In this document: one piece after another, positions 1-50,520 of the stretch
Position numbering within the stretch: position 1 is the stretch's first letter
Layout of the letters: the number at the start of each line of letters is the position of its first letter
Assembly (NCBI RefSeq): GCF_029227915.1
Contig: NC_079887.1
Span: forward strand, 23,681,650-23,745,649
Direction of reading: 5' to 3'
Origin: Hydractinia symbiolongicarpus
Lineage: Eukaryota > Cnidaria > Hydrozoa > Anthoathecata > Hydractiniidae
DNA length: 64,000 nt
Made by a program: the position numbers and the translations under genes
The notes under the pieces: model-generated
Told to the model about the DNA's origin: nothing
Seen by the model: only the letters and a program-made list of their open reading frames with translations
The model's database searches: none

Positions 1-472
1 CTAAAATAATATTCTTCTCCTTCACTAAATTTATAGAACAAATTGTACGCCTGTTAATATTAGAGAGGTTTTTGTTTTGTTTTGAAGATTGACAACCAAA
101 TATTTTCGAACCTTCTTCATAAATTAAGGTTTTAAGTGTTTTTACTTTCTCAGTAATAGATGGATGCTTACAAGTATTTAAGTTGCTATGCACAGGACTG
201 TCCAATTTGCTCCAACGTGTGTTATTCATCTTACCCCAAAGGATGGGTTTTTTTTGTTCCAAGTTCTGAAGTTGCGCTTTCTCTGTGCGACACAATTTAC
301 CCTTGTGGATTTTAACCGAAGCAGGAACTGTGGTCTTAAGCTTTTCAGCAACACTAAGAGAACAAACATCCTCCAGAACAACTTTACAACTTTTCAATAA
401 ATGCTTTTGGTGTACCGTATCACTTTGTTTTTTGCAATGATTCTTTTCAAGGTTGGATACAAAAGAAGTCAT
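1..472 (-). pseudogene. Copy A: N-terminal part of USP-LINE, cut by window edge
   Basis: This is the N-terminal extension of the next array copy, reading leftwards out of the window from an ATG at 472. It matches the same part of copies B-D and holds the conserved stretch that precedes the RT fingers. Everything downstream lies outside the window. Confidence 0.8.
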
Positions 473-730
473 AACTATAGGGGTTGATTATGCACAGGAT
501 ATGAACAGTCAGCCCTGCGTTGCCTGGCGCATAGGGTAAGGCTATAATTTTCACAGCGTCGCCACTACTGTGAGATTTCACTAGCGACTAATTAACCCAT
601 TAGCCATTAATCCATTGGCGCGTACCGTGGATTAGGGTCCAGTTAAAATCAAAAACAAAATCAGTATATCAAAGCAAATCCTTAAAACGATCAATCAGTC
701 CAAATACGAACAGTGGTCTGGTCTTTTTTA

Positions 731-793
731 GTGTCACTAGTCTTTCCCAGTGTCTCCAGTCTTTCCCAGTGTCACTAGTCTTTCCCAGTGTCA
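731..793. repeat. 19-bp minisatellite in array spacer
   Basis: Three and a bit copies of a 19-bp unit of the form GTGTCACTAGTCTTTCCCA lie in the spacer between the LINE 3' end and the next N-terminal extension. The same block recurs at about 6036, 11332, 16637 and 21941. The surrounding spacer (about 473-1121 and equivalents) holds no convincing gene. It may be 5' UTR or promoter of the downstream copy, but no motif proves that. Confidence 0.85.
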
Positions 794-1210
794 GTTTAAA
801 CCATTGCGGTCAACAAAGAGATGAAAAAGGTTTACAATACAGCAAGCTGCACCGAAGTATCTTGTCTACAGGGACGGTGGTTGTCAAAACTGGGATTAGG
901 CTCCCAGAAGAAGGTGCTGAATACACTTTCTTGCTTCTTACAAGCATGAGCCCAAAACTATTTTTTAAGAAAATCGTAAAGAGAAAAAACAATCCCTCTA
1001 TCACAAACAATACGACACAAGACAGAGCTAACAACATAAACGGACTGGTTACAGTTCAAACACAAATAGAAAAATGTATATGTTAAAAATTTATTAATAT
1101 AAAAAAGAAATAAATAAGACCCTTCTGTGCGCCAGAACTTGTGACTCTGGCTGTAGCTTTCCACATGTGTTACAGGGCCCCAACACTGAGCCTTACACAG
1201 GAGGTTGTCA

Positions 1211-1229
1211 CGACAGGACCAGCCTGTCG
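1211..1229 (-). other. 3' UTR hairpin (conserved stem)
   Basis: On the minus strand CGACAGG and CCTGTCG form a seven-base-pair stem with loop CTGGT, in the 3' UTR of copy B. Identical hairpins are at 6516-6534, 11812-11830, 17117-17135 and 22421-22439. The independent LINE tail at 61735-61753 keeps the structure with a compensatory C-G to T-A change at the stem base. RLE-type LINEs use structured 3' UTRs for target-primed reverse transcription, so this is a plausible RT-recognition element. Confidence 0.6.
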
Positions 1230-1512
1230 ATATTTTAACTAAGGAAGCAGGGTTATCAAGCCTGAAGACCAAGTTAGTAAACTTGGGCACCTTACCGAAC
1301 TGGGGTAAAAAGTGGGGTCGTTACACCCAAAGATAGAGAAGAGTGAGCTGAACTCTTTACCCTCTGGGTATTAACGGTAAACTGGCTTGTATAAACAAGC
1401 TGGGGTAATACAAAACCGCTCGGATTTACATTTTCCTCCCCCATGACCCTGGTAGTACAGGTTTAAAGCAACAGCGAAGGTAATTTATAAAGAGGAAAAA
1501 AACAACAACAAA

Positions 1513-1536
1513 AAAACAAACAAACAAACAAACAAA
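1513..1536. repeat. (CAAA)n microsatellite after USP stop
   Basis: A CAAA-rich tract lies directly 3' of the USP stop codon in element orientation. It recurs in each array unit and is longer and more A-rich in copy F near 22750-22797. Confidence 0.7.
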
Positions 1537-1539
1537 AAG

Positions 1540-2610
1540 CTAGCAGCGGGTATAAAAGAAAACATATGATGTAGTACTGTTGGGCGTTCTTGGATCAACT
1601 TTGCTTATTGTCTTATCATTGCAGAGGTACCAAGAGTTTGTGGTCCGATCGTTGATATGGGTCCAATAGTGGCCTGCATTCAATGTTCCAGAGTGATTTA
1701 TCACAGCTACCAAAGCATACTTTTGGATAAAAGATATGTGCGAGTCACTAGATATCGGGATATTGAGATAAGGATTAGAAGAGGAAAAACTTTCAACAAA
1801 TTTATTGTCCTTAACCAGATGTTCTCCATCTCTTGCAAACCTTTCAGGTGTAAGGTTATTTCGCTATTCCTCGTAATCCTTGTTTCCCTAGTGCTCTCTT
1901 GGTGCAGGGAACATGTGGGCAAAACCATTTATTTTCATCCTTCAGATTTTCAGAAGCTAAAAATATACTAACTGACAATTGTACGCTGGAAGACAGTGAC
2001 AGTGTTAGGATGTCCTGATTTTCAACAGTAACTGAAGAACAGAGACAGGTGTTACAGCTAACTGACACCGATACTTCTGTTGAGATGTTCTGAGACGCAA
2101 TTACCGAGAACCCCTTCAATTCATCAAAGACAAGAAGTAACATCTCTGCCACATCTTGCTGAGAATTGTATTGGAAAGTTGTATTTCCAGAAGAGTGTAT
2201 CCTACGTTCTAGGGCCTTGAGAACGTTTGAAGGATTAACATGGTCATGTTAAGAGCAATCGCTTTCATAATTGGTGACAAACGGGATGACTCCGAAGCAC
2301 TCTGGGACCATAGGGATGGAATAGTACTTAGTGCTTGCAAAATAACATTGGCATAGCACGTATTGCCTTTGTTGACAAAACCTGCATTTATAAAAATTGT
2401 CTTTGTTTTGGCACTAGTTTTGTTATGGTTGATTTTTAGAGAGACTGGAGTGCGTGGACCTGATAAACGACCCTTGGGCATTTCTTTTACTGGAGCTGGA
2501 TTACTTTGACGAGATGGAACAGACTTGGGCGAAAGAGTTTTCCTCGTTCCGGGTGTCTTTATTAAGGAGTCTTGAGACCAGTCTCTTGACCCCGAGCAAT
2601 CCATACACAA
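1540..2610 (-). pseudogene. Copy B ubiquitin-specific protease (USP) domain
   Basis: This is a C-terminal USP (peptidase C19, papain-like deubiquitinase) directly after the RLE. The Cys box is FVNKGNTCYANVILQAL with the catalytic Cys codon at 2356-2358. Then come QQDVAEMLLLVFDEL, a zinc ribbon CNTC and FCPHVPC, the strand ITLHLK followed by RF, and the His box VAVINHSGTLNAGHYW with His at 1669-1671. LCND and the C-terminal VFFY precede a stop at 1540. Length, order and both catalytic residues fit a compact USP catalytic core. The frame changes between Cys box and QQD, after the zinc ribbon, and inside LHLK-RF, so it is not translatable as one protein. A K/S-rich linker joins it to the RLE. 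Confidence 0.88.
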
Positions 2611-5600
2611 AAAGAAGCTGTCATACTGATTTTACCAAGGTATTTTGCGGTGGAATATGCCATTTTGTTGGAAAAACCCAGCCTTTTCAGACACGCCGTG
2701 GTAGTTCTCGCGCAATAACCTTTTGCCCCTACTTCTACAGCAAAGAAATCAACTTGCCAACAACTGGACAGAATTACGTTAACCAAGCAGGAATATTTAG
2801 TGACTTTGGTGGAGTGCCAATAGTTTGTATTTTCCTCGCAAGGGCAAGTGAGTTCGATAATTATAACTCGTTTAAGCTTATTTGAAAATATAACTATATC
2901 AGTTCTTAGTTGTGTCACAGCAATGTGGCCTGGAAAAACAAAGTTTGGACTAGTGTCGGTAACAACTATCCAATCGTTGGTGAGATACAATATACCTGTA
3001 ACCTTTGTCTTTGATTTAGGACTAACATAAGCACCTGCCTTAACAAAAGTCATAGAATTACATTTCCTGGAGATGGTAAGTGGAAGTGTTGAGAGGAATT
3101 GTTTTAAAGTGTCAACCAAGTGCACTAGCACCGAATCGTGCCTAAACGTATAACTTCCCTGAACTAGAGCTATTTTACATGCACCCAGAATGTGAGCAGA
3201 GGTGCAGATTTCTTTGTGGCACAAAAAACAAGATGATTCAGTAATTATTTTCCAACGTTTTAGATTGTTTGGGGATGGTAAGACATCATATGTAGCCTGG
3301 AGACAGAAAGATAAAAGGTTTGGCGGAGTGGCTAGTATGTCTTTCCAGGAAAGATCGAATTTAACATAGTTCTCCCACCTAGTCCACTGGCCTTGGACTT
3401 GAAGCTGCAATGCTCTGGAACTTTCTGGTAACTTTCTTCTTCAATTTCCTTTGATGTGTTGGAAACCAATTTCCTATACCCATAGGTGTCTTTAGGTGGT
3501 ATAACGTCTCTCTTTGTAACTCCAATTCCGGGCTTTCCATATTGGATGGGACCTCTCATCGCTTTGTAATTTAATTCACTTACAACCGTGTCCACTGCCT
3601 CGTTCGCTCGCCAGGTACCAGCCTTTACAGTGGCATTAAGTGCAGACAGAATGGGATTTTTCGAATGGCGCAATAGTAGGTGAACGCTGATTTTTGCAGA
3701 TTTTAATATGGAATAAGACTCTTTATGGGTAAAGGACATGGGGAGAATTCGGCATAAAAGCTTATGTTGGTAATGGAGTGGTGCAAATTTAACCATTTTC
3801 TAATAAAACATGAGACTATTTGTTCAAGGCGGGCAGCAGTTGAGATGAGATGGAAACTTCATATATTAAAAGTGGCCATTGAATTCTTGGAATTAAAAGG
3901 TGTTGCAGGATCCAAAGTTTTTGGGGACTTGTGTACAGGGACTTGTCAATAACAGACAGTCCATCAATGAGTTTTTCTTCCAGATCGTCGATTGACTTTC
4001 TGTCAGAAATGGAACCGTCGATAATCCTTCCTAAAAAACGTACAGGTTGATTATGAATTGACGGGATAAAGGGAGATAAGTCAGTTGCGTTGTCAGGTCT
4101 AATAACGCTGAAGGGTGCGCTGTTAATTGATCTACCCTTAATGATAACGAAGCTGCGGGATTTTTCTGCACGGAAGTCCATTTTTGCCCAGCTAAGATCT
4201 GTGACACACCTGTCAAGTAGTATCTTTCTGCCAGGAACTGAAGAAGACATAAGGTTAATGTCGTCCATGAAGGCTCTTATCAGAGGTAAGGAAACTTTGG
4301 CTGATGTAATGTAGCAAGAGACTGATGTTGCCAGTGTATATACTAAGACAACATTTATACCAGACAGGAACAGAATGATGGACAATGTACAACCTGCAAG
4401 GATGCCTTTAAGGTGTTGGTGCCATTTGCTTGGAGCAGATTTAGAAAATGATTTGCTGTATAGAGCAGAGTAGTATTTCTTCACAATGGCAATCCAACTT
4501 GGGGATATGCCATATCTTTCCAGAGCAAAAAAGATTAATCTGTGCGGAATTGATGGATACGCACTTGCTATATCTAACCAAATGGTGGCGAGGTCAGCTT
4601 TTTCCGAGCGTGCATCTTTCAAGGCTGTCCAAATCGATAACATGTGTTCCCAGCAGCCAGGAACTTTCTCCATGCACCCTTTTTGAATGGAAGTATTAAC
4701 TTGTTGTTGTGGATGATATGCGTTTCCAGACGCTTTGACAGAATACTAGTCGACGTAGGAGTTTTTAACTTAGGTATGTAAATTTCTTGGGCATGACGCC
4801 ATTGCATAGGGACAATACAATTTTTTAAACAACATTTAAATACATTAAACAAGAAGGATAAAATATTTGTACACTTTTTGTACACTTTGTACGATATGCC
4901 GTTCAGCCCGGGGGCTGAAGCGTTTCTACGTCTATGTAAAACACTTGCAAAGTCAGAAAATTTGAAGGTTGAAGATGAAAAAGGTTTTTTGATTTGCGGA
5001 GTTGGTGGAAGACCTGGCAGAACCGGCAGAGAAGAGTCGTGAAGATCGTCACTCAAGTTGCATAATTTGTGGTTGTCCAAAATAGACTGTTCGACACAAA
5101 GATGAACATAAGATTTAGGGTTGAGTAGATCTTTTCCTGCTTGGTAGGGATACTTCCTGAATAATTTTTGGGCATTTTTAAAACTACACTTTCTTCTCCT
5201 TCGTTTTTTCACCTCGACGCATTACTCTAATTTTTATTCTAACTTGATGTAAAAGTTGTCGCAAGGCAGATATTTCTTGCTCGATGGATGACGAAGAAAT
5301 CTGCGCTAAAATAATATTCTTCTCCTTCACTAAATTTATAGAACAAATTGTACGCCTGTTAATATTAGAGAGGTTTTTGTTTTGTTTTGAAGATTGACAA
5401 CCAAATATTTTCGAACCTTCTTCATAAATTAAGGTTTTAAGTGTTTTTACTTTCTCAGTAATAGATGGATGCTTACAAGTATTTAAGTTGCTATGCACAG
5501 GACTGTCCAATTTGCTCCAACGTGTGTTATTCATCTTACCCCAAAGGATGGGTTTTTTTTGTTCCAAGTTCTGAAGTTGCGCTTTCTCTGTGCGACACAA

Positions 5601-5777
5601 TTTACCCTTGTGGATTTTAACCGAAGCAGGAACTGTGGTCTTAAGCTTTTCAGCAACACTAAGAGAACAAACATCCTCCAGAACAACTTTACAACTTTTC
5701 AATAAATGCTTTTGGTGTACCGTATCACTTTGTTTTTTGCAATGATTCTTTTCAAGGTTGGATACAAAAGAAGTCAT
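2562..5777 (-). pseudogene. Copy B reverse transcriptase-endonuclease
   Basis: This is the RT and endonuclease part of an RLE-type (R2-like) LINE. In order on the minus strand it has an N-terminal extension (5777-5184), RT fingers with RRNASAPGLNGISYK (5212-4619), and the palm (4673-3816) with motif A WLDIASAYPSIP and motif C AFMDD (FMDD at 4271-4260). A thumb/linker follows (3796-3332), then a CX2CX8HX4C zinc knuckle beside HDSVL, then the RLE with RTDIVIF, IIIELTCPCEEN and KVTKYS (3410-2562). The catalytic RT aspartates are present. The segment after IYIPK that should contain the DFRP/ALLN finger motif is deleted. The RLE PD motif reads TD. Each listed block is in a different frame from its neighbour, so this is a dead gene. 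Confidence 0.88.
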
Positions 5778-6844
5778 AACTATAGGGGTTGATTATGCAC
5801 AGGATATGAACAGTCAGCCCTGCGTTGCCTGGCGCATAGGGTAAGGCTATAATTTTCACAGCGTCGCCACTACTGTGAGATTTCACTAGCGACTAATTAA
5901 CCCATTAGCCATTAATCCATTGGCGCGTACCGTGGATTAGGGTCCAGTTAAAATCAAAAACAAAATCAGTATATCAAAGCAAATCCTTAAAACGATCAAT
6001 CAGTCCAAATACGAACAGTGGTCTGGTCTTTTTTAGTGTCACTAGTCTTTCCCAGTGTCTCCAGTCTTTCCCAGTGTCACTAGTCTTTCCCAGTGTCAGT
6101 TTAAACCATTGCGGTCAACAAAGAGATGAAAAAGGTTTACAATACAGCAAGCTGCACTGAAGTATCTTGTCTACAGGGACGGTGGTTGTCAAAACTGGGA
6201 TTAGGCTCCCAGAAGAAGGTGCTGAATACACTTTCTTGCTTCTTACAAGCATGAGCCCAAAACTATTTTTTAAGAAAATCGTAAAGAGAAAAAACAATCC
6301 CTCTATCACAAACAATACGACACAAGACAGAGCTAACAACATAAACGGACTGGTTACAGTTCAAACACAAATAGAAAAATGTATATGTCAAAAATTTATT
6401 AATATAAAAAAGAAATAAATAAGACCCTTCTGTGCGCCAGAACTTGTGACTCTGGCTGTAGCTTTCCACATGTGTTACAGGGCCCCAACACTGAGCCTTA
6501 CACAGGAGGTTGTCACGACAGGACCAGCCTGTCGATATTTTAACTAAGGAAGCAGGGTTATCAAGCCTGAAGACCAAGTTAGTAAACTTGGGCACCTTAC
6601 CGAACTGGGGTAAAAAGTGGGGTCGTTACACCCAAAGATAGAGAAGAGTGAGCTGAACTCTTTACCCTCTGGGTATTAACGGTAAACTGGCTTGTATAAA
6701 CAAGCTGGGGTAATACAAAACCGCTCGGATTTACATTTTCCTCCCCCATGACCCTGGTAGTACAGGTTTAAAGCAACAGCGAAGGTAATTTATAAAGAGG
6801 AAAAAAACAACAACAAAAAAACAAACAAACAAACAAACAAAAAG

Positions 6845-7915
6845 CTAGCAGCGGGTATAAAAGAAAACATATGATGTAGTACTGTTGGGCGTTCTTGGAT
6901 CAACTTTGCTTATTGTCTTATCATTGCAGAGGTACCGAGAGTTTGTGGTCCGATCGTTGATATGGGTCCAATAGTGGCCTGCATTCAATGTTCCAGAGTG
7001 ATTTATCACAGCTACCAAAGCATACTTTTGGATAAAAGATATGTGCGAGTCACTAGATATCGGGATATTGAGATAAGGATTAGAAGAGGAAAAACTTTCA
7101 ACAAATTTATTGTCCTTAACCAGATGTTCTCCATCTCTTGCAAACCTTTCAGGTGTAAGGTTATTTCGCTATTCCTCGTAATCCTTGTTTCCCTAGTGCT
7201 CTCTTGGTGCAGGGAACATGTGGGCAAAACCATTTATTTTCATCCTTCAGATTTTCAGAAGCTAAAAATATACTAACTGACAATTGTACGCTGGAAGACA
7301 GTGACAGTGTTAGGATGTCCTGATTTTCAACAGTAACTGAAGAACAGAGACAGGTGTTACAGCTAACTGACACCGATACTTCTGTTGAGATGTTCTGAGA
7401 CGCAATTACCGAGAACCCCTTCAATTCATCAAAGACAAGAAGTAACATCTCTGCCACATCTTGCTGAGAATTGTATTGGAAAGTTGTATTTCCAGAAGAG
7501 TGTATCCTACGTTCTAGGGCCTTGAGAACGTTTGAAGGATTAACATGGTCATGTTAAGAGCAATCGCTTTCATAATTGGTGACAAACGGGATGACTCCGA
7601 AGCACTCTGGGACCATAGGGATGGAATAGTACTTAGTGCTTGCAAAATAACATTGGCATAGCACGTATTGCCTTTGTTGACAAAACCTGCATTTATAAAA
7701 ATTGTCTTTGTTTTGGCACTAGTTTTGTTATGGTTGATTTTTAGAGAGACTGGAGTGCGTGGACCTGATAAACGACCCTTGGGCATTTCTTTTACTGGAG
7801 CTGGATTACTTTGACGAGATGGAACAGACTTGGGCGAAAGAGTCTTCCTCGTTCCGGGTGTCTTTATTAAGGAGTCTTGAGACCAGTCTCTTGACCCCGA
7901 GCAATCCATACACAA
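6845..7915 (-). pseudogene. Copy C USP domain
   Basis: The USP core has its catalytic Cys codon at 7661-7663 and the His-box His at 6974-6976, with a stop at 6845. The motif order and frame breaks are those of the other array copies. A few silent or conservative type-2 variants distinguish it from copies B and D. Confidence 0.86.
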
Positions 7916-10900
7916 AAAGAAGCTGTCATACTGATTTTACCAAGGTATTTTGCGGTGGAATATGCCATTTTGTTGGAAAACCCCAGCCTTTTCAGACACG
8001 CCGTGGTTGTTCTCGCGCAATAACCTTTTGCCCCTACTTCTACAGCAAAGAAATCAACTTGCCAACAACTGGACAGAATTACGTTAACCAAGGAGGAATA
8101 TTTAGTGACTTTGGTGGAGTGCCAATAGTTTGTATTTTCCTCGCAAGGGCAAGTGAGTTCGATAATTATAACTCGTTTAAGCTTATTTGAAAATATAACT
8201 ATATCAGTTCTTAGTTGTGTCACAGCAATGTGGCCTGGAAAAACAAAGTTTGGACTAGTGTCGGCAACAACTATCCAATCGTTGGTGAGATACAATATAC
8301 CTGTAACCTTTGTCTTTGATTTAGGACTAACATAAGCACCTGCCTTAACAAAAGTCATAGAATTACATTTCCTAGAGATGGTAAGTGGAAGTGTTGAGAG
8401 GAATTGTTTTAAAGTGTCAACCAAGTGCACTAGCACCGAATTGTGCCTAAACGTATAACTTCAATGAACTAGAGCTATTTTACATGCACCCAGAATGTGA
8501 GCAGAGGTGCAGATTTCTTTGTGGCACAAAAAACAAGATGATTCAGTAATTATTTTCCAACGTTTTAGATTGTTTGGGGATGGTAAGACATCATATGTAG
8601 CCTGGAGACAGAAAGATAAAAGGTTTGGCGGAGTGGCTAGTATGTCTTTCCAGGAAAGATCGAATTTAACATAGTTCTCCCACCTAGTCCACTGGCCTTG
8701 GACTTGAAGCTGCAATGCTCTGGAACTTTCTGGTAACTTTCTTCTTCAATTTCCTTTGATGTGTTGGAAACCAATTTCCTATACCCATAGGTGTCTTTAG
8801 GTGGTATAACGTCTCTCTTTGTAACTCCAATTCCGGGCTTTCCATATTGGATGGGACCTCTCATCGCTTTGTAATTTAATTCACTTACAACCGTGTCCAC
8901 TGCCTCGTTCGCTCGCCAGGTACCAGCCTTTACAGTGGCATTAAGTGCAGACAGAATGGGATTTTTCGAATGGCGCAATAGTAGGTGAACGCTGATTTTT
9001 GCAGATTTTAATATGGAATAAGACTCTTTATGGGTAAAGGACATGGGGAGAATTCGGCATAAAAGCTTATGTTGGTAATGGAGTGGTGCAAATTTAACCA
9101 TTTTCTAATAAAACATGAGACTATTTGTTCAAGGCGGGCAGCAGTTGAGATGAGATGGAAACTTCATATATTAAAAGTGGCCATTGAATTCTTGGAATTA
9201 AAAGGTGTTGCAGGATCCAAAGTTTTTGGGGACTTGTGTACAGGGACTTGTCAATAACAGACAGTCCATCAATGAGTTTTTCTTCCAGATCGTCGATTGA
9301 CTTTCTGTCAGAAATGGAACCGTCGATAATCCTTCCTAAAAAACGTACAGGTTGATTATGAATTGACGGGATAAAGGGAGATAAGTCAGTTGCGTTGTCA
9401 GGTCTAATAACGCTGAAGGGTGCGCTGTTAATTGATCTACCCTTAATGATAACGAAGCTGCGGGATTTTTCTGCACGGAAGTCCATTTTTGCCCAGCTAA
9501 GATCTGTGACACACCTGTCAAGTAGTATCTTTCTGCCAGGAACTGAAGAAGACATAAGGTTAATGTCGTCCATGAAGGCTCTTATCAGAGGTAAGGAAAC
9601 TTTGGCTGATGTAATGTAGCAAGAGACTAGTGTATATACTAAGACAACATTTATACCAGACAGGAACAGAATGATGGACAATGTACAACCTGCAAGGATG
9701 CCTTTAAGGTGTTGGTGCCATTTGCTTGGAGCAGATTTAGAAAATGATTTGCTGTATAGAGCAGAGTAGTATTTCTTCACAATGGCAATCTAACTTGGGG
9801 ATATGCCATATCTTTCCAGAGCAAAAAAGATTAATCTGTGCGGAATTGATGGATACGCACTTGCTATATCTAACCAAATGGTGGCGAGGTCAGCTTTTTC
9901 CGAGCGTGCATTTTTCAAGGCTGTCCAAATCGATGACATGTGTTCCCAGCAGCCAGGAACTTTCTCAATGCACCCTTTTTGAATGGAAGTATTAACTTGT
10001 TGTTGTGGATGATATGCGTTTCCAGACGCTTTGACAGAATACTAGTCGACGTAGGAGTTTTTGACTTAGGTATGTAAATTTCTTGGGCATGACGCCATTG
10101 GATAGGGACAATACAATTTTTTAAACAACATTTAAATACATTAAACAAGAAGGATAAAATATTTGTACACTTTTTGTACACTTTGTACGATATGCCGTTC
10201 AGCCCGGGGGCTGAAGCGTTTCTACGTCTATGTAAAACACTTGCAAAGTCAGAAAATTTGAAGGTTGAAGATGAAAAAGGTTTTTTGATTTGCGGAGTTG
10301 GTGGAAGACCTGGCAGAACCGGCAGAGAAGAGTCGTGAAGATCGTCACTCAAGTTGCATAATTTGTGGTTGTCCAAAATAGACTGTTCGACACAAAGATG
10401 AACATAAGATTTAGGGTTGAGTAGATCTTTTCCTGCTTGGTAGGGATACTTCCTGAATAATTTTTGGGCATTTTTAAAACTACACTTTCTTCTCCTTCGT
10501 TTTTTCACCTCGACGCATTACTCTAATTTTTATTCTAACTTGATGTAAAAGTTGTCGCAAGGCAGATATTTCTTGCTCGATGGATGACGAAGAAATCTGC
10601 GCTAAAATAATATTCTTCTCCTTCACTAAATTTATAGAACAAATTGTACGCCTGTTAATATTAGAGAGGTTTTTGTTTTGTTTTGAAGATTGACAACCAA
10701 ATATTTTCGAACCTTCTTCATAAATTAAGGTTTTAAGTGTTTTTACTTTCTCAGTAATAGATGGATGCTTACAAGTATTTAAGTTGCTATGCACAGGACT
10801 GTCCAATTTGCTCCAACGTGTGTTATTCATCTTACCCCAAAGGATGGGTTTTTTTTGTTCCAAGTTCTGAAGTTGCGCTTTCTCTGTGCGACACAATTTA

Positions 10901-11073
10901 CCCTTGTGGATTTTAACCGAAGCAGGAACTGTGGTCTTAAGCTTTTCAGCAACACTAAGAGAACAAACATCCTCCAGAACAACTTTACAACTTTTCAATA
11001 AATGCTTTTGGTGTACCGTATCACTTTGTTTTTTGCAATGATTCTTTTCAAGGTTGGATACAAAAGAAGTCAT
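7867..11073 (-). pseudogene. Copy C reverse transcriptase-endonuclease
   Basis: RT fingers (10508-9915), palm with FMDD, zinc knuckle and RLE lie in the same order and with the same frame breaks as the other copies. Additional lesions are specific to this copy or shared with E. A TGG-to-TAG nonsense codon sits at 9790-9792 in the palm (the Trp of SPSWIAIV). A 9-bp in-frame deletion lies upstream of the motif C region. A two-base change near 8461-8466 turns a Gln-Gly pair into His-stop just after the zinc knuckle, and copy E has the same change. Confidence 0.87.
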
Positions 11074-12140
11074 AACTATAGGGGTTGATTATGCACAGGA
11101 TATGAACAGTCAGCCCTGCGTTGCCTGGCGCATAGGGTAAGGCTATAATTTTCACAGCGTCGCCACTACTGTGAGATTTCACTAGCGACTAATTAACCCA
11201 TTAGCCATTAATCCATTGGCGCGTACCGTGGATTAGGGTCCAGTTAAAATCAAAAACAAAATCAGTATATCAAAGCAAATCCTTAAAACGATCAATCAGT
11301 CCAAATACGAACAGTGGTCTGGTCTTTTTTAGTGTCACTAGTCTTTCCCAGTGTCTCCAGTCTTTCCCAGTGTCACTAGTCTTTCCCAGTGTCAGTTTAA
11401 ACCATTGCGGTCAACAAAGAGATGAAAAAGGTTTACAATACAGCAAGCTGCACCGAAGTATCTTGTCTACAGGGACGGTGGTTGTCAAAACTGGGATTAG
11501 GCTCCCAGAAGAAGGTGCTGAATACACTTTCTTGCTTCTTACAAGCATGAGCCCAAAACTATTTTTTAAGAAAATCGTAAAGAGAAAAAACAATCCCTCT
11601 ATCACAAACAATACGACACAAGACAGAGCTAACAACATAAACGGACTGGTTACAGTTCAAACACAAATAGAAAAATGTATATGTTAAAAATTTATTAATA
11701 TAAAAAAGAAATAAATAAGACCCTTCTGTGCGCCAGAACTTGTGACTCTGGCTGTAGCTTTCCACATGTGTTACAGGGCCCCAACACTGAGCCTTACACA
11801 GGAGGTTGTCACGACAGGACCAGCCTGTCGATATTTTAACTAAGGAAGCAGGGTTATCAAGCCTGAAGACCAAGTTAGTAAACTTGGGCACCTTACCGAA
11901 CTGGGGTAAAAAGTGGGGTCGTTACACCCAAAGATAGAGAAGAGTGAGCTGAACTCTTTACCCTCTGGGTATTAACGGTAAACTGGCTTGTATAAACAAG
12001 CTGGGGTAATACAAAACCGCTCGGATTTACATTTTCCTCCCCCATGACCCTGGTAGTACAGGTTTAAAGCAACAGCGAAGGTAATTTATAAAGAGGAAAA
12101 AAACAACAACAAAAAAACAAACAAACAAACAAACAAAAAG

Positions 12141-13211
12141 CTAGCAGCGGGTATAAAAGAAAACATATGATGTAGTACTGTTGGGCGTTCTTGGATCAAC
12201 TTTGCTTATTGTCTTATCATTGCAGAGGTACCAAGAGTTTGTGGTCCGATCGTTGATATGGGTCCAATAGTGGCCTGCATTCAATGTTCCAGAGTGATTT
12301 ATCACAGCTACCAAAGCATACTTTTGGATAAAAGATATGTCCGAGTCACTAGATATCGGGATATTGAGATAAGGATTAGAAGAGGAAAAACTTTCAACAA
12401 ATTTATTGTCCTTAACCAGATGTTCTCCATCTCTTGCAAACCTTTCAGGTGTAAGGTTATTTCGCTATTCCTCGTAATCCTTGTTTCCCTAGTGCTCTCT
12501 TGGTGCAGGGAACATGTGGGCAAAACCATTTATTTTCATCCTTCAGATTTTCAGAAGCTAAAAATATACTAACTGACAATTGTACGCTGGAAGACAGTGA
12601 CAGTGTTAGGATGTCCTGATTTTCAACAGTAACTGAAGAACAGAGACAGGTGTTACAGCTAACTGACACCGATACTTCTGTTGAGATGTTCTGAGACGCA
12701 ATTACCGAGAACCCCTTCAATTCATCAAAGACAAGAAGTAACATCTCTGCCACATCTTGCTGAGAATTGTATTGGAAAGTTGTATTTCCAGAAGAGTGTA
12801 TCCTACGTTCTAGGGCCTTGAGAACGTTTGAAGGATTAACATGGTCATGTTAAGAGCAATCGCTTTCATAATTGGTGACAAACGGGATGACTCCGAAGCA
12901 CTCTGGGACCATAGGGATGGAATAGTACTTAGTGCTTGCAAAATAACATTGGCATAGCACGTATTGCCTTTGTTGACAAAACCTGCATTTATAAAAATTG
13001 TCTTTGTTTTGGCACTAGTTTTGTTATGGTTGATTTTTAGAGAGACTGGAGTGCGTGGACCTGATAAACGACCCTTGGGCATTTCTTTTACTGGAGCTGG
13101 ATTACTTTGACGAGATGGAACAGACTTGGGCGAAAGAGTTTTCCTCGTTCCGGGTGTCTTTATTAAGGAGTCTTGAGACCAGTCTCTTGACCCCGAGCAA
13201 TCCATACACAA
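12141..13211 (-). pseudogene. Copy D USP domain
   Basis: The catalytic Cys codon is at 12957-12959, the His-box His at 12270-12272, and the stop at 12141. The zinc-ribbon cysteines, the QQD motif and the LCND asparagine-aspartate pair are all visible. It has the same three internal frame changes as its sister copies. Confidence 0.86.
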
Positions 13212-16200
13212 AAAGAAGCTGTCATACTGATTTTACCAAGGTATTTTGCGGTGGAATATGCCATTTTGTTGGAAAAACCCAGCCTTTTCAGACACGCCGT
13301 GGTAGTTCTCGCGCAATAACCTTTTGCCCCTACTTCTACAGCAAAGAAATCAACTTGCCAACAACTGGACAGAATTACGTTAACCAAGCAGGAATATTTA
13401 GTGACTTTGGTGGAGTGCCAATAGTTTGTATTTTCCTCGCAAGGGCAAGTGAGTTCGATAATTATAACTCGTTTAAGCTTATTTGAAAATATAACTATAT
13501 CAGTTCTTAGTTGTGTCACAGCAATGTGGCCTGGAAAAACAAAGTTTGGACTAGTGTCGGTAACAACTATCCAATCGTTGGTGAGATACAATATACCTGT
13601 AACCTTTGTCTTTGATTTAGGACTAACATAAGCACCTGCCTTAACAAAAGTCATAGAATTACATTTCCTGGAGATGGTAAGTGGAAGTGTTGAGAGGAAT
13701 TGTTTTAAAGTGTCAACCAAGTGCACTAGCACCGAATCGTGCCTAAACGTATAACTTCCCTGAACTAGAGCTATTTTACATGCACCCAGAATGTGAGCAG
13801 AGGTGCAGATTTCTTTGTGGCACAAAAAACAAGATGATTCAGTAATTATTTTCCAACGTTTTAGATTGTTTGGGGATGGTAAGACATCATATGTAGCCTG
13901 GAGACAGAAAGATAAAAGGTTTGGCGGAGTGGCTAGTATGTCTTTCCAGGAAAGATCGAATTTAACATAGTTCTCCCACCTAGTCCACTGGCCTTGGACT
14001 TGAAGCTGCAATGCTCTGGAACTTTCTGGTAACTTTCTTCTTCAATTTCCTTTGATGTGTTGGAAACCAATTTCCTATACCCATAGGTGTCTTTAGGTGG
14101 TATAACGTCTCTCTTTGTAACTCCAATTCCGGGCTTTCCATATTGGATGGGACCTCTCATCGCTTTGTAATTTAATTCACTTACAACCGTGTCCACTGCC
14201 TCGTTCGCTCGCCAGGTACCAGCCTTTACAGTGGCATTAAGTGCAGACAGAATGGGATTTTTCGAATGGCGCAATAGTAGGTGAACGCTGATTTTTGCAG
14301 ATTTTAATATGGAATAAGACTCTTTATGGGTAAAGGACATGGGGAGAATTCGGCATAAAAGCTTATGTTGGTAATGGAGTGGTGCAAATTTAACCATTTT
14401 CTAATAAAACATGAGACTATTTGTTCAAGGCGGGCAGCAGTTGAGATGAGATGGAAACTTCATATATTAAAAGTGGCCATTGAATTCTTGGAATTAAAAG
14501 GTGTTGCAGGATCCAAAGTTTTTGGGGACTTGTGTACAGGGACTTGTCAATAACAGACAGTCCATCAATGAGTTTTTCTTCCAGATCGTCGATTGACTTT
14601 CTGTCAGAAATGGAACCGTCGATAATCCTTCCTAAAAAACGTACAGGTTGATTATGAATTGACGGGATAAAGGGAGATAAGTCAGTTGCGTTGTCAGGTC
14701 TAATAACGCTGAAGGGTGCGCTGTTAATTGATCTACCCTTAATGATAACGAAGCTGCGGGATTTTTCTGCACGGAAGTCCATTTTTGCCCAGCTAAGATC
14801 TGTGACACACCTGTCAAGTAGTATCTTTCTGCCAGGAACTGAAGAAGACATAAGGTTAATGTCGTCCATGAAGGCTCTTATCAGAGGTAAGGAAACTTTG
14901 GCTGATGTAATGTAGCAAGAGACTGATGTTGCCAGTGTATATACTAAGACAACATTTATACCAGACAGGAACAGAATGATGGACAATGTACAACCTGCAA
15001 GGATGCCTTTAAGGTGTTGGTGCCATTTGCTTGGAGCAGATTTAGAAAATGATTTGCTGTATAGAGCAGAGTAGTATTTCTTCACAATGGCAATCCAACT
15101 TGGGGATATGCCATATCTTTCCAGAGCAAAAAAGATTAATCTGTGCGGAATTGATGGATACGCACTTGCTATATCTAACCAAATGGTGGCGAGGTCAGCT
15201 TTTTCCGAGCGTGCATCTTTCAAGGCTGTCCAAATCGATAACATGTGTTCCCAGCAGCCAGGAACTTTCTCCATGCACCCTTTTTGAATGGAAGTATTAA
15301 CTTGTTGTTGTGGATGATATGCGTTTCCAGACGCTTTGACAGAATACTAGTCGACGTAGGAGTTTTTAACTTAGGTATGTAAATTTCTTGGGCATGACGC
15401 CATTGCATAGGGACAATACAATTTTTTAAACAACATTTAAATACATTAAACAAGAAGGATAAAATATTTGTACACTTTTTGTACACTTTGTACGATATGC
15501 CGTTCAGCCCGGGGGCTGAAGCGTTTCTACGTCTATGTAAAACACTTGCAAAGTCAGAAAATTTGAAGGTTGAAGATGAAAAAGGTTTTTTGATTTGCGG
15601 AGTTGGTGGAAGACCTGGCAGAACCGGCAGAGAAGAGTCGTGAAGATCGTCACTCAAGTTGCATAATTTGTGGTTGTCCAAAATAGACTGTTCGACACAA
15701 AGATGAACATAAGATTTAGGGTTGAGTAGATCTTTTCCTGCTTGGTAGGGATACTTCCTGAATAATTTTTGGGCATTTTTAAAACTACACTTTCTTCTCC
15801 TTCGTTTTTTCACCTCGACGCATTACTCTAATTTTTATTCTAACTTGATGTAAAAGTTGTCGCAAGGCAGATATTTCTTGCTCGATGGATGACGAAGAAA
15901 TCTGCGCTAAAATAATATTCTTCTCCTTCACTAAATTTATAGAACAAATTGTACGCCTGTTAATATTAGAGAGGTTTTTGTTTTGTTTTGAAGATTGACA
16001 ACCAAATATTTTCGAACCTTCTTCATAAATTAAGGTTTTAAGTGTTTTTACTTTCTCAGTAATAGATGGATGCTTACAAGTATTTAAGTTGCTATGCACA
16101 GGACTGTCCAATTTGCTCCAACGTGTGTTATTCATCTTACCCCAAAGGATGGGTTTTTTTTGTTCCAAGTTCTGAAGTTGCGCTTTCTCTGTGCGACACA

Positions 16201-16378
16201 ATTTACCCTTGTGGATTTTAACCGAAGCAGGAACTGTGGTCTTAAGCTTTTCAGCAACACTAAGAGAACAAACATCCTCCAGAACAACTTTACAACTTTT
16301 CAATAAATGCTTTTGGTGTACCGTATCACTTTGTTTTTTGCAATGATTCTTTTCAAGGTTGGATACAAAAGAAGTCAT
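13163..16378 (-). pseudogene. Copy D reverse transcriptase-endonuclease
   Basis: The blocks are the N-terminal extension (16378-15785), RT fingers (15813-15220), palm (15274-14417) with LDIASAYP and FMDD, thumb (14397-13933), and zinc knuckle plus RLE (14011-13163). The last block is 282 codons, the longest uninterrupted one. In it the knuckle Cys, Cys, His and Cys are at about residues 61, 64, 73 and 78. The RLE Asp is at 171 and the ELT Glu at 186, followed by KVTKY. It shares the finger deletion and all frame breaks with B, C and E. Confidence 0.88.
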
Positions 16379-17445
16379 AACTATAGGGGTTGATTATGCA
16401 CAGGATATGAACAGTCAGCCCTGCGTTGCCTGGCGCATAGGGTAAGGCTATAATTTTCACAGCGTCGCCACTACTGTGAGATTTCACTAGCGACTAATTA
16501 ACCCATTAGCCATTAATCCATTGGCGCGTACCGTGGATTAGGGTCCAGTTAAAATCAAAAACAAAATCAGTATATCAAAGCAAATCCTTAAAACGATCAA
16601 TCAGTCCAAATACGAACAGTGGTCTGGTCTTTTTTAGTGTCACTAGTCTTTCCCAGTGTCTCCAGTCTTTCCCAGTGTCACTAGTCTTTCCCAGTGTCAG
16701 TTTAAACCATTGCGGTCAACAAAGAGATGAAAAAGGTTTACAATACAGCAAGCTGCACTGAAGTATCTTGTCTACAGGGACGGTGGTTGTCAAAACTGGG
16801 ATTAGGCTCCCAGAAGAAGGTGCTGAATACACTTTCTTGCTTCTTACAAGCATGAGCCCAAAACTATTTTTTAAGAAAATCGTAAAGAGAAAAAACAATC
16901 CCTCTATCACAAACAATACGACACAAGACAGAGCTAACAACATAAACGGACTGGTTACAGTTCAAACACAAATAGAAAAATGTATATGTCAAAAATTTAT
17001 TAATATAAAAAAGAAATAAATAAGACCCTTCTGTGCGCCAGAACTTGTGACTCTGGCTGTAGCTTTCCACATGTGTTACAGGGCCCCAACACTGAGCCTT
17101 ACACAGGAGGTTGTCACGACAGGACCAGCCTGTCGATATTTTAACTAAGGAAGCAGGGTTATCAAGCCTGAAGACCAAGTTAGTAAACTTGGGCACCTTA
17201 CCGAACTGGGGTAAAAAGTGGGGTCGTTACACCCAAAGATAGAGAAGAGTGAGCTGAACTCTTTACCCTCTGGGTATTAACGGTAAACTGGCTTGTATAA
17301 ACAAGCTGGGGTAATACAAAACCGCTCGGATTTACATTTTCCTCCCCCATGACCCTGGTAGTACAGGTTTAAAGCAACAGCGAAGGTAATTTATAAAGAG
17401 GAAAAAAACAACAACAAAAAAACAAACAAACAAACAAACAAAAAG

Positions 17446-18516
17446 CTAGCAGCGGGTATAAAAGAAAACATATGATGTAGTACTGTTGGGCGTTCTTGGA
17501 TCAACTTTGCTTATTGTCTTATCATTGCAGAGGTACCGAGAGTTTGTGGTCCGATCGTTGATATGGGTCCAATAGTGGCCTGCATTCAATGTTCCAGAGT
17601 GATTTATCACAGCTACCAAAGCATACTTTTGGATAAAAGATATGTGCGAGTCACTAGATATCGGGATATTGAGATAAGGATTAGAAGAGGAAAAACTTTC
17701 AACAAATTTATTGTCCTTAACCAGATGTTCTCCATCTCTTGCAAACCTTTCAGGTGTAAGGTTATTTCGCTATTCCTCGTAATCCTTGTTTCCCTAGTGC
17801 TCTCTTGGTGCAGGGAACATGTGGGCAAAACCATTTATTTTCATCCTTCAGATTTTCAGAAGCTAAAAATATACTAACTGACAATTGTACGCTGGAAGAC
17901 AGTGACAGTGTTAGGATGTCCTGATTTTCAACAGTAACTGAAGAACAGAGACAGGTGTTACAGCTAACTGACACCGATACTTCTGTTGAGATGTTCTGAG
18001 ACGCAATTACCGAGAACCCCTTCAATTCATCAAAGACAAGAAGTAACATCTCTGCCACATCTTGCTGAGAATTGTATTGGAAAGTTGTATTTCCAGAAGA
18101 GTGTATCCTACGTTCTAGGGCCTTGAGAACGTTTGAAGGATTAACATGGTCATGTTAAGAGCAATCGCTTTCATAATTGGTGACAAACGGGATGACTCCG
18201 AAGCACTCTGGGACCATAGGGATGGAATAGTACTTAGTGCTTGCAAAATAACATTGGCATAGCACGTATTGCCTTTGTTGACAAAACCTGCATTTATAAA
18301 AATTGTCTTTGTTTTGGCACTAGTTTTGTTATGGTTGATTTTTAGAGAGACTGGAGTGCGTGGACCTGATAAACGACCCTTGGGCATTTCTTTTACTGGA
18401 GCTGGATTACTTTGACGAGATGGAACAGACTTGGGCGAAAGAGTCTTCCTCGTTCCGGGTGTCTTTATTAAGGAGTCTTGAGACCAGTCTCTTGACCCCG
18501 AGCAATCCATACACAA
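17446..18516 (-). pseudogene. Copy E USP domain
   Basis: The Cys box has its catalytic Cys codon at 18262-18264, QQDVAEM lies near 18060, the zinc ribbon follows, the His-box His codon is at 17575-17577, and the stop is at 17446. All USP landmark motifs are present but divided among three reading frames. Confidence 0.86.
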
Positions 18517-21500
18517 AAAGAAGCTGTCATACTGATTTTACCAAGGTATTTTGCGGTGGAATATGCCATTTTGTTGGAAAACCCCAGCCTTTTCAGACAC
18601 GCCGTGGTTGTTCTCGCGCAATAACCTTTTGCCCCTACTTCTACAGCAAAGAAATCAACTTGCCAACAACTGGACAGAATTACGTTAACCAAGGAGGAAT
18701 ATTTAGTGACTTTGGTGGAGTGCCAATAGTTTGTATTTTCCTCGCAAGGGCAAGTGAGTTCGATAATTATAACTCGTTTAAGCTTATTTGAAAATATAAC
18801 TATATCAGTTCTTAGTTGTGTCACAGCAATGTGGCCTGGAAAAACAAAGTTTGGACTAGTGTCGGCAACAACTATCCAATCGTTGGTGAGATACAATATA
18901 CCTGTAACCTTTGTCTTTGATTTAGGACTAACATAAGCACCTGCCTTAACAAAAGTCATAGAATTACATTTCCTAGAGATGGTAAGTGGAAGTGTTGAGA
19001 GGAATTGTTTTAAAGTGTCAACCAAGTGCACTAGCACCGAATTGTGCCTAAACGTATAACTTCAATGAACTAGAGCTATTTTACATGCACCCAGAATGTG
19101 AGCAGAGGTGCAGATTTCTTTGTGGCACAAAAAACAAGATGATTCAGTAATTATTTTCCAACGTTTTAGATTGTTTGGGGATGGTAAGACATCATATGTA
19201 GCCTGGAGACAGAAAGATAAAAGGTTTGGCGGAGTGGCTAGTATGTCTTTCCAGGAAAGATCGAATTTAACATAGTTCTCCCACCTAGTCCACTGGCCTT
19301 GGACTTGAAGCTGCAATGCTCTGGAACTTTCTGGTAACTTTCTTCTTCAATTTCCTTTGATGTGTTGGAAACCAATTTCCTATACCCATAGGTGTCTTTA
19401 GGTGGTATAACGTCTCTCTTTGTAACTCCAATTCCGGGCTTTCCATATTGGATGGGACCTCTCATCGCTTTGTAATTTAATTCACTTACAACCGTGTCCA
19501 CTGCCTCGTTCGCTCGCCAGGTACCAGCCTTTACAGTGGCATTAAGTGCAGACAGAATGGGATTTTTCGAATGGCGCAATAGTAGGTGAACGCTGATTTT
19601 TGCAGATTTTAATATGGAATAAGACTCTTTATGGGTAAAGGACATGGGGAGAATTCGGCATAAAAGCTTATGTTGGTAATGGAGTGGTGCAAATTTAACC
19701 ATTTTCTAATAAAACATGAGACTATTTGTTCAAGGCGGGCAGCAGTTGAGATGAGATGGAAACTTCATATATTAAAAGTGGCCATTGAATTCTTGGAATT
19801 AAAAGGTGTTGCAGGATCCAAAGTTTTTGGGGACTTGTGTACAGGGACTTGTCAATAACAGACAGTCCATCAATGAGTTTTTCTTCCAGATCGTCGATTG
19901 ACTTTCTGTCAGAAATGGAACCGTCGATAATCCTTCCTAAAAAACGTACAGGTTGATTATGAATTGACGGGATAAAGGGAGATAAGTCAGTTGCGTTGTC
20001 AGGTCTAATAACGCTGAAGGGTGCGCTGTTAATTGATCTACCCTTAATGATAACGAAGCTGCGGGATTTTTCTGCACGGAAGTCCATTTTTGCCCAGCTA
20101 AGATCTGTGACACACCTGTCAAGTAGTATCTTTCTGCCAGGAACTGAAGAAGACATAAGGTTAATGTCGTCCATGAAGGCTCTTATCAGAGGTAAGGAAA
20201 CTTTGGCTGATGTAATGTAGCAAGAGACTGATGTTGCCAGTGTATATACTAAGACAACATTTATACCAGACAGGAACAGAATGATGGACAATGTACAACC
20301 TGCAAGGATGCCTTTAAGGTGTTGGTGCCATTTGCTTGGAGCAGATTTAGAAAATGATTTGCTGTATAGAGCAGAGTAGTATTTCTTCACAATGGCAATC
20401 CAACTTGGGGATATGCCATATCTTTCCAGAGCAAAAAAGATTAATCTGTGCGGAATTGATGGATACGCACTTGCTATATCTAACCAAATGGTGGCGAGGT
20501 CAGCTTTTTCCGAGCGTGCATCTTTCAAGGCTGTCCAAATCGATGACATGTGTTCCCAGCAGCCAGGAACTTTCTCCATGCACCCTTTTTGAATGGAAGT
20601 ATTAACTTGTTGTTGTGGATGATATGCGTTTCCAGACGCTTTGACAGAATACTAGTCGACGTAGGAGTTTTTAACTTAGGTATGTAAATTTCTTGGGCAT
20701 GACGCCATTGCATAGGGACAATACAATTTTTTAAACAACATTTAAATACATTAAACAAGAAGGATAAAATATTTGTACACTTTTTGTACACTTTGTACGA
20801 TATGCCGTTCAGCCCGGGGGCTGAAGCGTTTCTACGTCTATGTAAAACACTTGCAAAGTCAGAAAATTTGAAGGTTGAAGATGAAAAAGGTTTTTTGATT
20901 TGCGGAGTTGGTGGAAGACCTGGCAGAACCGGCAGAGAAGAGTCGTGAAGATCGTCACTCAAGTTGCATAATTTGTGGTTGTCCAAAATAGACTGTTCGA
21001 CACAAAGATGAACATAAGATTTAGGGTTGAGTAGGTCTTTTCCTGCTTGGTAGGGATACTTCCTGAATAATTTTTGGGCATTTTTAAAACTACACTTTCT
21101 TCTCCTTCGTTTTTTCACCTCGACGCATTACTCTAATTTTTATTCTAACTTGATGTAAAAGTTGTCGCAAGGCAGATATTTCTTGCTCGATGGATGACGA
21201 AGAAATCTGCGCTAAAATAATATTCTTCTCCTTCACTAAATTTATAGAACAAATTGTACGCCTGTTAATATTAGAGAGGTTTTTGTTTTGTTTTGAAGAT
21301 TGACAACCAAATATTTTCGAACCTTCTTCATAAATCAAGGTTCAAGTGTTTTTACTTTCTCAGTAATAGATAGATGCTTACAAGTATTTAAGTTGCTATG
21401 CACAGCACTGTTCAATTTGCTCCAACGTGTGTTATTTATCTTACCCCAAAGGATGGGGGTTTTTTGTTCCAAGTTCTGAAGTTGCGCTTTCTCTGTGCGA

Positions 21501-21682
21501 CACAATTTACTCTTGTGGATTTTAACCGAAGCAGGAACTGTGGTCTTAAGCTTTTCAGCAACACTAAGAGAACAAACATCCTCCAGAACAACTTTACAAC
21601 TTTTCAATAACTGCTTTTGGTGTACCGTATCACTTTGTTTTTTGCAATTATTCTTTTCAAGGTTGGATACAAAAAAAGTCAT
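18468..21682 (-). pseudogene. Copy E reverse transcriptase-endonuclease
   Basis: Two short blocks (21682-21335 and 21338-21090) replace the single N-terminal block of the other copies. They are followed by fingers (21118-20525), a full palm block with FMDD (20579-19722), thumb (19702-19238), zinc knuckle (19316-19062) and RLE (19037-18468). The last two are separated by the same Gln-Gly to His-stop change as in copy C, with its stop codon at 19062-19064. The palm lacks the nonsense codon and the 9-bp deletion of copy C. Confidence 0.87.
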
Positions 21683-22331
21683 AACTATAGGGGTTGATTA
21701 TGCACAGGATATGGACAGTCAGCCCTGCGTTGCCTGGCGCATAGGGTAAGGCTATAATTTTCACAGCGTCGCCACTACTGTGAGGTTTCACTAGCGATTA
21801 ATTAACCCATTAGCCATTCATCCAATGGCGCGTACCGTGGATTAGGGTCCAGTTAAAATCAAAAACAAAATCAGTATATCAAAGCAAATCCTTAAAACGG
21901 TCAATCAGTCCAAATACGAACAGTGGTCTGGTCTTTTTCAGTGTCACTAGTCTTTCCCAGTGTCTCCAGTCTTTCCCAGTGTCACTAGTCTTTCCCAGTG
22001 ACAGTTTAAACCATTGCGGTCAACAAAGAGATGAAAAAGGTTTACAATACAGCAAGCTGCACTGAAGTATCTTGTCTACAGGGACGGTGGTTGTCAAAAC
22101 TGGGATTAGGCTCCCAGAAGAAGGTGCTGAATACACTTTCTTGCTTCTTACAAGCATGAGCCCAAAACTATTTTTTAAGAAAATCGTAAAGAGAAAAAAC
22201 AATCCTTCTATCACAAACAATACGACACAAGACAGAGCTAACAACATAAACGGACTGGTTACAGTTCAAACACAAATAGAAAAATGTATATGTCAAAAAT
22301 TTATTAATATAAAAAATAAATAAATAAGACC

Positions 22332-23107
22332 CTTCTGTGCGCCAGAACTTGTGACTCTGGCTGTAGCTTTCCACATGTGTTACAGGGCCCCAACACTCAG
22401 CCTTACACAGGAGGTTGTCACGACAGGACCAGCCTGTCGATATTTTGACTAAGGACAGCAGGGTTGTCAAGCCTGAAGACAAAGTTAGTAAACTTGGGCA
22501 CCTTAACTGGGGTAAAAAGTGGGGTCGTTACACCCAAAGATAAGCTAAAAGCAAACCCCCTTGCTAAGCTTCTTATAAGTTACCAGAAAAGAGTGAGCTG
22601 AACTCTTTACCCTCTGGGTATTAACGGTAAACTGGCTTGTATGAACAAGCTGGGGTAATACAAAACCGCTCGGATTTACATTTTCCTCCCCCATGACCCT
22701 GGTAGTACAGGTTAAAAGCAACAGCGAAGGTAATTTATAAAGAGGAAAAAAACAACAACAAAACAACAACAAAAAAACAAAAAAAAAACAAAAAAAAGCT
22801 AGCAGCGGGTATAAAAGAAAACATATGATGTAGTGCTGTTGGGCGTTCTTGGATCAACTTTGCTTATTGCCTTATCATTGCAGAGGTACCAAGAGTTTGT
22901 GGTCCGATCTTTGATATGGGTCCAATAGTGGCCTGCATTCAATGATCCAGAGTGATTTATCACAGCTACCAAAGCATACTTTTGGATAAAAGATATGTCC
23001 GAGTCACTAGATATCGGGATATTGAGATAAGGATTAGAAGAGGAAAAACTTTCAACAAATCTATTCTCCTTAACCAGATGTTCTCCATCTCTTGCGAACC
23101 TTTTCAG
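22332..23107 (-). mobile_element. Copy F: 5'-truncated, diverged USP-LINE tail
   Basis: This holds only the last ~100 codons of USP coding sequence (stop at 22799) plus the 3' UTR, as expected for a 5'-truncated LINE. It carries ~49 bp near 22540-22590 that copies B-E lack. That segment has a counterpart in the independent plus-strand LINE 3' UTR near 61.66 kb, so F keeps the ancestral state and B-E share a derived deletion. It is joined head to tail to copy E through the usual spacer. Confidence 0.75.
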
Positions 23108-28869: not shown

Positions 28870-31333
<2,464 letters not shown>

Positions 31334-38208: not shown

Positions 38209-38351
38209 ACAGGCTTGCCTTCTATATTTAATAAGACAATAGACCGATAATCTTTAATATCTGACTCCATAGGAGTTTTTGATTTAGGGATATAAATTCC
38301 ACTAGCACAACGCCATTGAATAGGGACAACACAATTTTCAAAACAACACTT
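38209..38351 (-). pseudogene. LINE RT finger fragment (USP-LINE relative)
   Basis: On the minus strand this reads KCCFENCVVPIQWRCASGIY, then IPKSKTPMESDIKDYRSIVL and LNIEGKP. It matches the finger region of the array RT but keeps the KDYRSIVLLN segment that all array copies have lost. It is an independent fragment of the same RT lineage, immediately next to the Ulp1-like pseudogene on the other strand. Confidence 0.8.
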
Positions 38352-38353
38352 TT

Positions 38354-50304: not shown

Positions 50305-50520
50305 AAGAAAAAAATTTACAAAGAGGTGGCAAGCCACCGCAATGATGAACTCAACCTGTTAGGTCTTTGGAAATAAGCTAGAGGTTGCACTCCTCTAGAG
50401 AAAATGCCTCTAAAAAGCACAATTCTCCCTTTTTACAAGGAATTAAAAATATATAAAAAAATAAAAAGGACACAACACATTTAAAAAGATGAACAGAATT
50501 TTAACCAAGGGCAGGTAGGT
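50305..50520 (-). repeat. Dispersed repeat, copy 2 (tail half only)
   Basis: This is the 3' half of the repeat family, ending with CCACCTCTTTGTAAA in minus orientation. It follows directly on the end of the USP fragment at 50521-51018, so here the repeat tail serves as the 3' UTR of a USP-coding element. Confidence 0.8.

Follow-up and report, generated by a model that had tools for sequence, protein, structure and literature searches.

A LINE of Hydractinia with a restriction-like endonuclease encodes a ubiquitin-specific protease at the C-terminus of its single protein

Introduction

Among long interspersed nuclear elements (LINEs) with a restriction-like endonuclease (RLE), the NeSL and Utopia elements encode a single protein with a reverse transcriptase (RT) and a C-terminal zinc finger plus RLE, and some of them carry a cysteine protease of the ubiquitin-like system (accessible part of PMC4640811). 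In Utopia-1_TSP and nematode NeSL, the same source places an Ulp1-like protease at the N-terminus (PMC4640811), and an earlier sequence-only reading had likewise named C48 Ulp1 proteases for these LINEs. Here we describe a LINE found in a 64,000-nucleotide stretch of Hydractinia symbiolongicarpus DNA (the window; C13:23681650-23745649 within the 480.9-Mb genome), which resembles NeSL/Utopia in this layout but carries a ubiquitin-specific protease (USP; peptidase family C19) at the C-terminus instead of an Ulp1-like protease N-terminal of the RT. No C48 domain, the protease of NeSL/Utopia, was found in three host copies (loci L009, L015 and L016) or in the five database relatives scanned. Database proteins that combine RT and Ulp1 form a clade of their own apart from the USP clade.

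Like R2, the element has a single open reading frame (ORF) with RT, zinc knuckle and RLE, and of the solved structures it is R2 (9nl2) that its RT matches best. Unlike the element, R2 is a far outgroup in our trees, no match to ribosomal DNA (rDNA) occurred in the loci tested, and R2 is not known to carry a protease. The USP domain shares its fold, catalytic residues and zinc ribbon with USP2, USP8, USP15 and USP21, but these proteins are cellular, lack an RT and, among the matches listed, are ~25-30% identical to the LINE domain. The spliceosomal protein Prp8 ends in a Jab1/MPN domain, which has a deubiquitinase fold of the JAMM and not the USP kind and is regarded as inactive. The RT-like, linker and endonuclease-like parts of Prp8 have been compared with RLE-LINEs (accessible part of PMC5678591). 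The element likewise ends in a deubiquitinase-fold domain, but with a USP where Prp8 has a JAMM, and the likeness in layout is probably convergent.

In agreement with the earlier reader, who knew of no LINE with a C19 peptidase, none was found in the open-licence literature among the matches listed, Repbase being outside this scope (accessible parts of PMC4640811, PMC11067881, PMC3747384, PMC5678591 and PMC7464072 included). According to the Hydractinia genome paper, LINEs make up 4% of each genome, and its main text nowhere mentions ubiquitin (PMC11067881). As far as the literature searched goes, the combination of RT, endonuclease and USP is new.

Results

When an intact host copy was used as a tblastn query, the N-terminal region, RT, RLE and USP were found in that order on the minus strand of the window, at 49-80% identity. 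This confirmed the proposal that RT, knuckle, endonuclease and USP lie in this order on one strand at 1540..5777. The limits of the unit were set from the junction, read in the sequence against host copies, and its spacing from self-comparison. The parts of this copy are as follows.

820..6124, minus strand: one complete LINE unit of 5305 bp, with the unit start at 6124 (side of CTTTGTTGACC) and the 3' end at 820 (side of CCTTTTTCATC)
4952..5792, minus strand: N-terminal region, in two frames (tblastn with L009; ORF 5184-5777)
3715..4951, minus strand: RT (FMDD), in three frames (tblastn with L009; RVT_1, E 4.6e-10, at 3816-4673)
2592..3383, minus strand: CX2CX8HX4C knuckle and RLE (tblastn with L009; zf-RVT, 27.8 bits with a cut-off of 27.5, at 2562-3410)
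1546..2400, minus strand: USP (C19) core, in four pieces across three frames (tblastn with L009)

The window copy is thus a broken frame, with the RT and the N-terminal region frameshifted as well as the USP. Such breaks would also suit a separate USP gene that is merely located downstream, as would the host USP sequences without a nearby RT or RLE (L021 and L023). Unbroken host copies argue otherwise. Among the 28 host loci inspected, which represent 22 distinct places (L001-L008 partly duplicate later loci), eight (L009-L016) hold a single open frame of 1422-1426 codons with an FxDD box, GNTCY and GHY, and the frames of L017 and L018 have 1379 and 1345 codons. Six frames of 1426 codons differ among themselves by 1-10 residues. 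In all eight frames of 1422-1426 codons, at loci chosen by their USP match, the USP is in frame, as the sequence-only reading required of intact copies. At least 85 database proteins keep the same fusion, so the USP is not a neighbouring gene; the single frames rule this explanation out, and we regard it as virtually excluded.

In L009, Pfam placed RVT_1 at residues 339-609 (E 8.2e-16), zf-RVT at 828-892 (24.2 bits, below the cut-off of 27.5) and UCH at 1137-1423 (E 4.9e-32, 254 of 254 model positions), and L015 has the same domain order. The domain matches are far above chance level. RVT_1 and the best solved-structure matches, which are R2, mark the RT as one of the type found in elements without long terminal repeats (LTRs). 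A zinc knuckle and a PD...ELT motif were read in the sequence after the RT; no curated RLE model matched, and the endonuclease is assigned from the motif and zf-RVT. Between RLE and USP lies a linker rich in Ser, Pro and Lys, with a median of 57 residues. These data show an RLE-type LINE whose one protein comprises an N-terminal region, RT, zinc knuckle, RLE, linker and complete C-terminal USP.

The association holds across the host genome. RT, RLE and USP stand in order on one strand in 18 of the 20 loci fetched through a USP match; in L021 and L023 the USP stands alone, and L021 looks like a cellular USP. A search that started from the RT gave at least 98 matches (92 of 2612 candidates scored), 57 of which reach the query end. 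For 31 of these 57 listed, a UCH match lies 1084-1468 bp downstream on the same strand. The other 26 were read in slices of 1.5-1.7 kb (25) or in the window (1), and the USP or its start follows on the same strand in 18 of them (17 slices and the window copy), with only the start present in the slices of L040 and L045. A same-strand USP is absent downstream of the remaining eight, for which slice length cannot separate truncation or nested insertion from true absence: no USP occurred in the slices of 1.5-1.7 kb at L029, L034, L037, L041, L049, L050 and L053, and at L030 it lies on the opposite strand. The check from the RT side therefore yields a downstream USP for 49 of the 57.

The fusion is also found among database proteins. 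Among the matches listed, 303 related proteins were obtained, and these were scanned together with L009 and L015 (305 in total) using L009-derived profiles. A USP was detected in 88, of which 87 also contain RT-RLE (85 database proteins and the two host frames) and carry the USP C-terminal of the RLE without exception; the 88th, P0097, is a plant USP. A complete RLE without a USP match was present in 191 proteins; 188 of them stop no more than 47 residues past the RLE, the exceptions with a longer C-terminus being P0127, P0146 and P0160. Past its RLE, P0146, a metagenome protein from another clade of RLE-LINE, has a C-terminal NADAR domain (residues 1181-1335, E 6.8e-33), a further captured domain, and P0127, also from a metagenome, has 497 residues without a Pfam match. 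Where the listed USP carriers bear an organism name, it is Hydractinia (P0084) or one bacterial bin (P0032); we take the latter for contamination. Viral contigs scanned with P0001 gave no match.

For the trees, 304 RT-RLE sequences were reduced to 246 by removing incomplete rows together with 21 Ulp1-like proteins for which no Ulp1 domain was listed, and the Ulp1 and 'none' groups were then thinned from 94 to 12 and from 83 to 58. In the resulting FastTree tree (141 rows, 798 columns), all 67 USP rows fall into one clade with support of 100, together with two partial-USP rows and 25 USP-less rows, and the Ulp1 rows form a separate clade, also with support of 100. R2 was the only named reference family; its two sequences served as the outgroup and sit on a long branch, and the element RT does not group with them. 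This tree has 10 changes of the USP label, a count to which incomplete proteins among the USP-less rows may contribute. A mixture-model tree of 50 author-chosen rows gave an agreeing clade of 33 (support 100) with four label changes, for which one gain and three losses suffice. Moreover, RT-RLE and USP distances are correlated over 61 proteins (r 0.85; permutation maximum 0.20, 0 of 999 as high). The correlation and the trees fit a single capture and joint descent with the RT, and the USP was probably captured once, inherited with the RT and lost in some branches. The earlier proposal that a retroelement lineage captured a deubiquitinase is thereby supported.

The USP itself appears well preserved. 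In 78 aligned domains, one of them the plant USP P0097, the catalytic Cys and His are each present in 78 and the Asp/Asn in 73, and the four zinc cysteines are kept in 75, 78, 78 and 78. Profile and Foldseek matches identify a full catalytic domain with the USP fold, the fold matches being those that Foldseek returned, so that a fold missed there would not show. With its active site intact, the USP is probably an active deubiquitinase.

The ends of the units are informative as well. Subfamily L009 copies have the 3' end ...AAACCTTTTTCAT(C) in common. In seven of the 10 oriented loci, a piece of another unit precedes the unit, its 3' end joined to the unit start, and the piece measures 112 bp in L016, 208 in L013, 291 in L011, 480 in L014, at least 770 in L012 and at least 1227 in L009; L010 has two units 5367 bp apart. 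Self-comparison revealed no preceding piece in L015, L017 and L018, and L022 (subfamily L015) has a 3' untranslated region upstream of its frame. LTRs were considered for these repeated ends and rejected, because the left piece differs in length from copy to copy and its end abuts the start of the following unit; the element thus lacks LTRs, as expected of an RLE-type LINE. R2 RT is known for end-to-end template jumping. The concatemers in L009-L014, L016 and L022 suggest either such jumping or transcription through a tandem array. The flanks differ among copies, and no common target was seen in them by eye. Rfam searches of the window at gathering scores and of L011, L013 and L015 up to E 0.5 turned up no family, neither rDNA nor a listed ribozyme like that of hepatitis delta virus; insertion into 28S rDNA, which characterizes R2, was accordingly not seen there.

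The window copy belongs to a tandem array.

1..23110, minus strand: tandem array of ~4.4 units, extending upstream of the window (self-comparison, RT match, tblastn)
730-793, 6035-6098, 11331-11394, 16636-16699 and 21931-22000: 19-bp repeat, 3.4-3.7 copies

The units, each of ~5305 bp, lie head to tail. The first four are 99.64-99.98% alike and the last partial piece 94.6%; unit 1 is nearest unit 3, and unit 2 is nearest unit 4. An RT match at C13:23680199 indicates at least one additional unit upstream of the window. Since the units are near-identical and the same frame breaks are present in every one, we infer that the array expanded through recombination of a dead copy. The 19-bp repeat lies in the 5' part of each unit, where host copies carry GACACTGGGAAAGACTAG repeats.

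Further copies of the LINE occur elsewhere in the window.

54839..57788, plus strand: second, diverged copy with the end of the N-terminal region, RT, RLE, linker and Cys box (NTCY) (tblastn, sequence reading)
60773..61376, plus strand: 3' part of a USP, a separate copy of subfamily L015 (tblastn, synonymous difference)
50483..50985, minus strand: USP fragments from another copy, with 33-34% identity to L009 (tblastn)
38202..38369, minus strand: RT fragment of a further copy (tblastn)

The diverged copy at 54.9-57.8 kb had been described as a single frame for RT, RLE and Cys box apart from two stops; this stands from 55.45 kb onwards, but a frameshift near 55.51 kb has to be added. The USP tail at 60.77-61.38 kb was considered as its continuation and rejected, because the synonymous difference from subfamily L015 is 0.03 for the tail versus 0.75 (RT) and 0.82 (RLE) for the 55-57 kb part. 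Between the two lies a DDE_Tnp_4 transposase piece (58757-59449, minus strand, E 7.8e-20), which we take to be a Harbinger-like DNA transposon. A 607-residue open frame with a GIY-YIG-like motif (29207-31030, minus strand) matched no Pfam family and is probably a Penelope-like element; next to it lie a direct repeat of 462 bp and a perfect palindrome of 704 bp. Inverted repeats of ~348 bp, 91% alike, lie at 40314-40661 and 54357-54684.

Discussion

The USP would most likely strip ubiquitin off the protein of the element itself, either in cis or inside the ribonucleoprotein (RNP), and we give this proposal an even chance of being right. Replication by target-primed reverse transcription is presumed from the kind of element. 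The deubiquitinated RNP would evade the proteasome long enough to reach chromatin, where the surviving RNP would integrate.

Besides protection of the RNP, the sequence-only reading had offered processing of a polyprotein; here the USP would cut the element's own protein into separate RT and USP products. USPs cleave after the Gly-Gly end of ubiquitin. Coronavirus PLpro, called USP-like, does process its own polyprotein (accessible part of PMC7464072). However, L009 is free of Gly-Gly dipeptides, one or two occur at unrelated positions in five other proteins, and the linker includes Gly-Gly in 11 of 87 proteins. Pfam detected no ubiquitin-like domain above the cut-off in L009 or the other proteins scanned, and an APG12 match (E 0.041, below the cut-off), seen in L009 and L016, did not recur in six others. 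Self-cleavage would therefore have no visible substrate, and we consider this role highly improbable.

Cellular USPs act on histones and repair factors. The element's USP might likewise deubiquitinate such proteins where the target is nicked, and so open the site or direct repair to completed integration; the flexible linker tethers it behind the endonuclease and would put it at the nick, and the fold matches include USP1 in complex with ubiquitin-FANCD2. Nevertheless, fold and profile matches cover USPs of many different substrates, and we rate action at chromatin as possible but rather unlikely. Host factors are a further candidate target: the USP could free restriction or sensing factors of ubiquitin or a relative, in the manner of viral deconjugases, which have targets of this kind (accessible part of PMC7464072). 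The greater divergence of the USP than of the RT (median difference 0.74 vs 0.53) is what a host-facing domain would be expected to show, but it may merely reflect weaker constraint, and the dN/dS comparisons (ratios of non-synonymous to synonymous divergence; no site test was run) give no sign of positive selection. We find such a defence against the host unlikely.

Between L009 and an array unit, dN/dS was 0.08 for the RT, 0.05 for the RLE and 0.11 for the USP (interval 0.08-0.20), all with nearly saturated synonymous sites (0.69-0.74). Nearly all other distant pairs are synonymously saturated, with non-synonymous differences of 0.17-0.50, so dN/dS between most subfamilies is unusable. Among very similar copies of subfamily L015, USP dN/dS was 0.47-0.94, from a handful of changes and with wide intervals. 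The pattern most likely reflects constraint on the active lineage over the long term, less strict for the USP than for the RT, with young copies drifting. A mere passenger, either decayed and still attached as deletion is rare or only binding ubiquitin, would agree with the loss of the USP in several branches and with the lack of constraint among young copies. It is nonetheless quite improbable, given that the catalytic Cys and His are invariant in all 78 domains at a median difference of 0.74 and that non-synonymous change is far below synonymous change between subfamilies.

Several observations weigh against a working USP that serves the element's own RNP. The low USP dN/dS depends on the near-saturation noted above, and the very similar copies show no constraint. 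The third catalytic residue is Ser in five of the 78 domains, and L016, near full length, lacks two short stretches, one of which takes out a zinc cysteine. Additionally, some USP-less relatives in the same clade (the P0073 group, read as protein only, where a USP encoded downstream in another frame would escape notice) are still full-length proteins, and the lineage can therefore do without the domain. The main alternatives, action on chromatin at the target or on host factors, fit the present evidence as self-deubiquitination does.

Overall, we put forward, with chances we judge to be balanced, that in a deep, widespread LINE lineage a single capture brought in a working deubiquitinase, which stayed fused to the RT-endonuclease and lets the element edit ubiquitin at the nicked target or on its own RNP. 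If this is true, ubiquitin control would stand in the way of retrotransposition, and at least two RLE lineages would have answered it with the capture of different proteases, a C-terminal C19 here and an N-terminal C48 in the other clade. The finding enlarges the small known set of accessory enzymes of non-LTR retrotransposons by a protease class. As the lineage includes both carriers of the USP and members that lack it, the question whether ubiquitin limits LINE retrotransposition can be put to a natural test, and in Hydractinia, a laboratory animal, near-identical and presumably young copies are numerous. The element may show how a jumping gene evades the cell's protein disposal.
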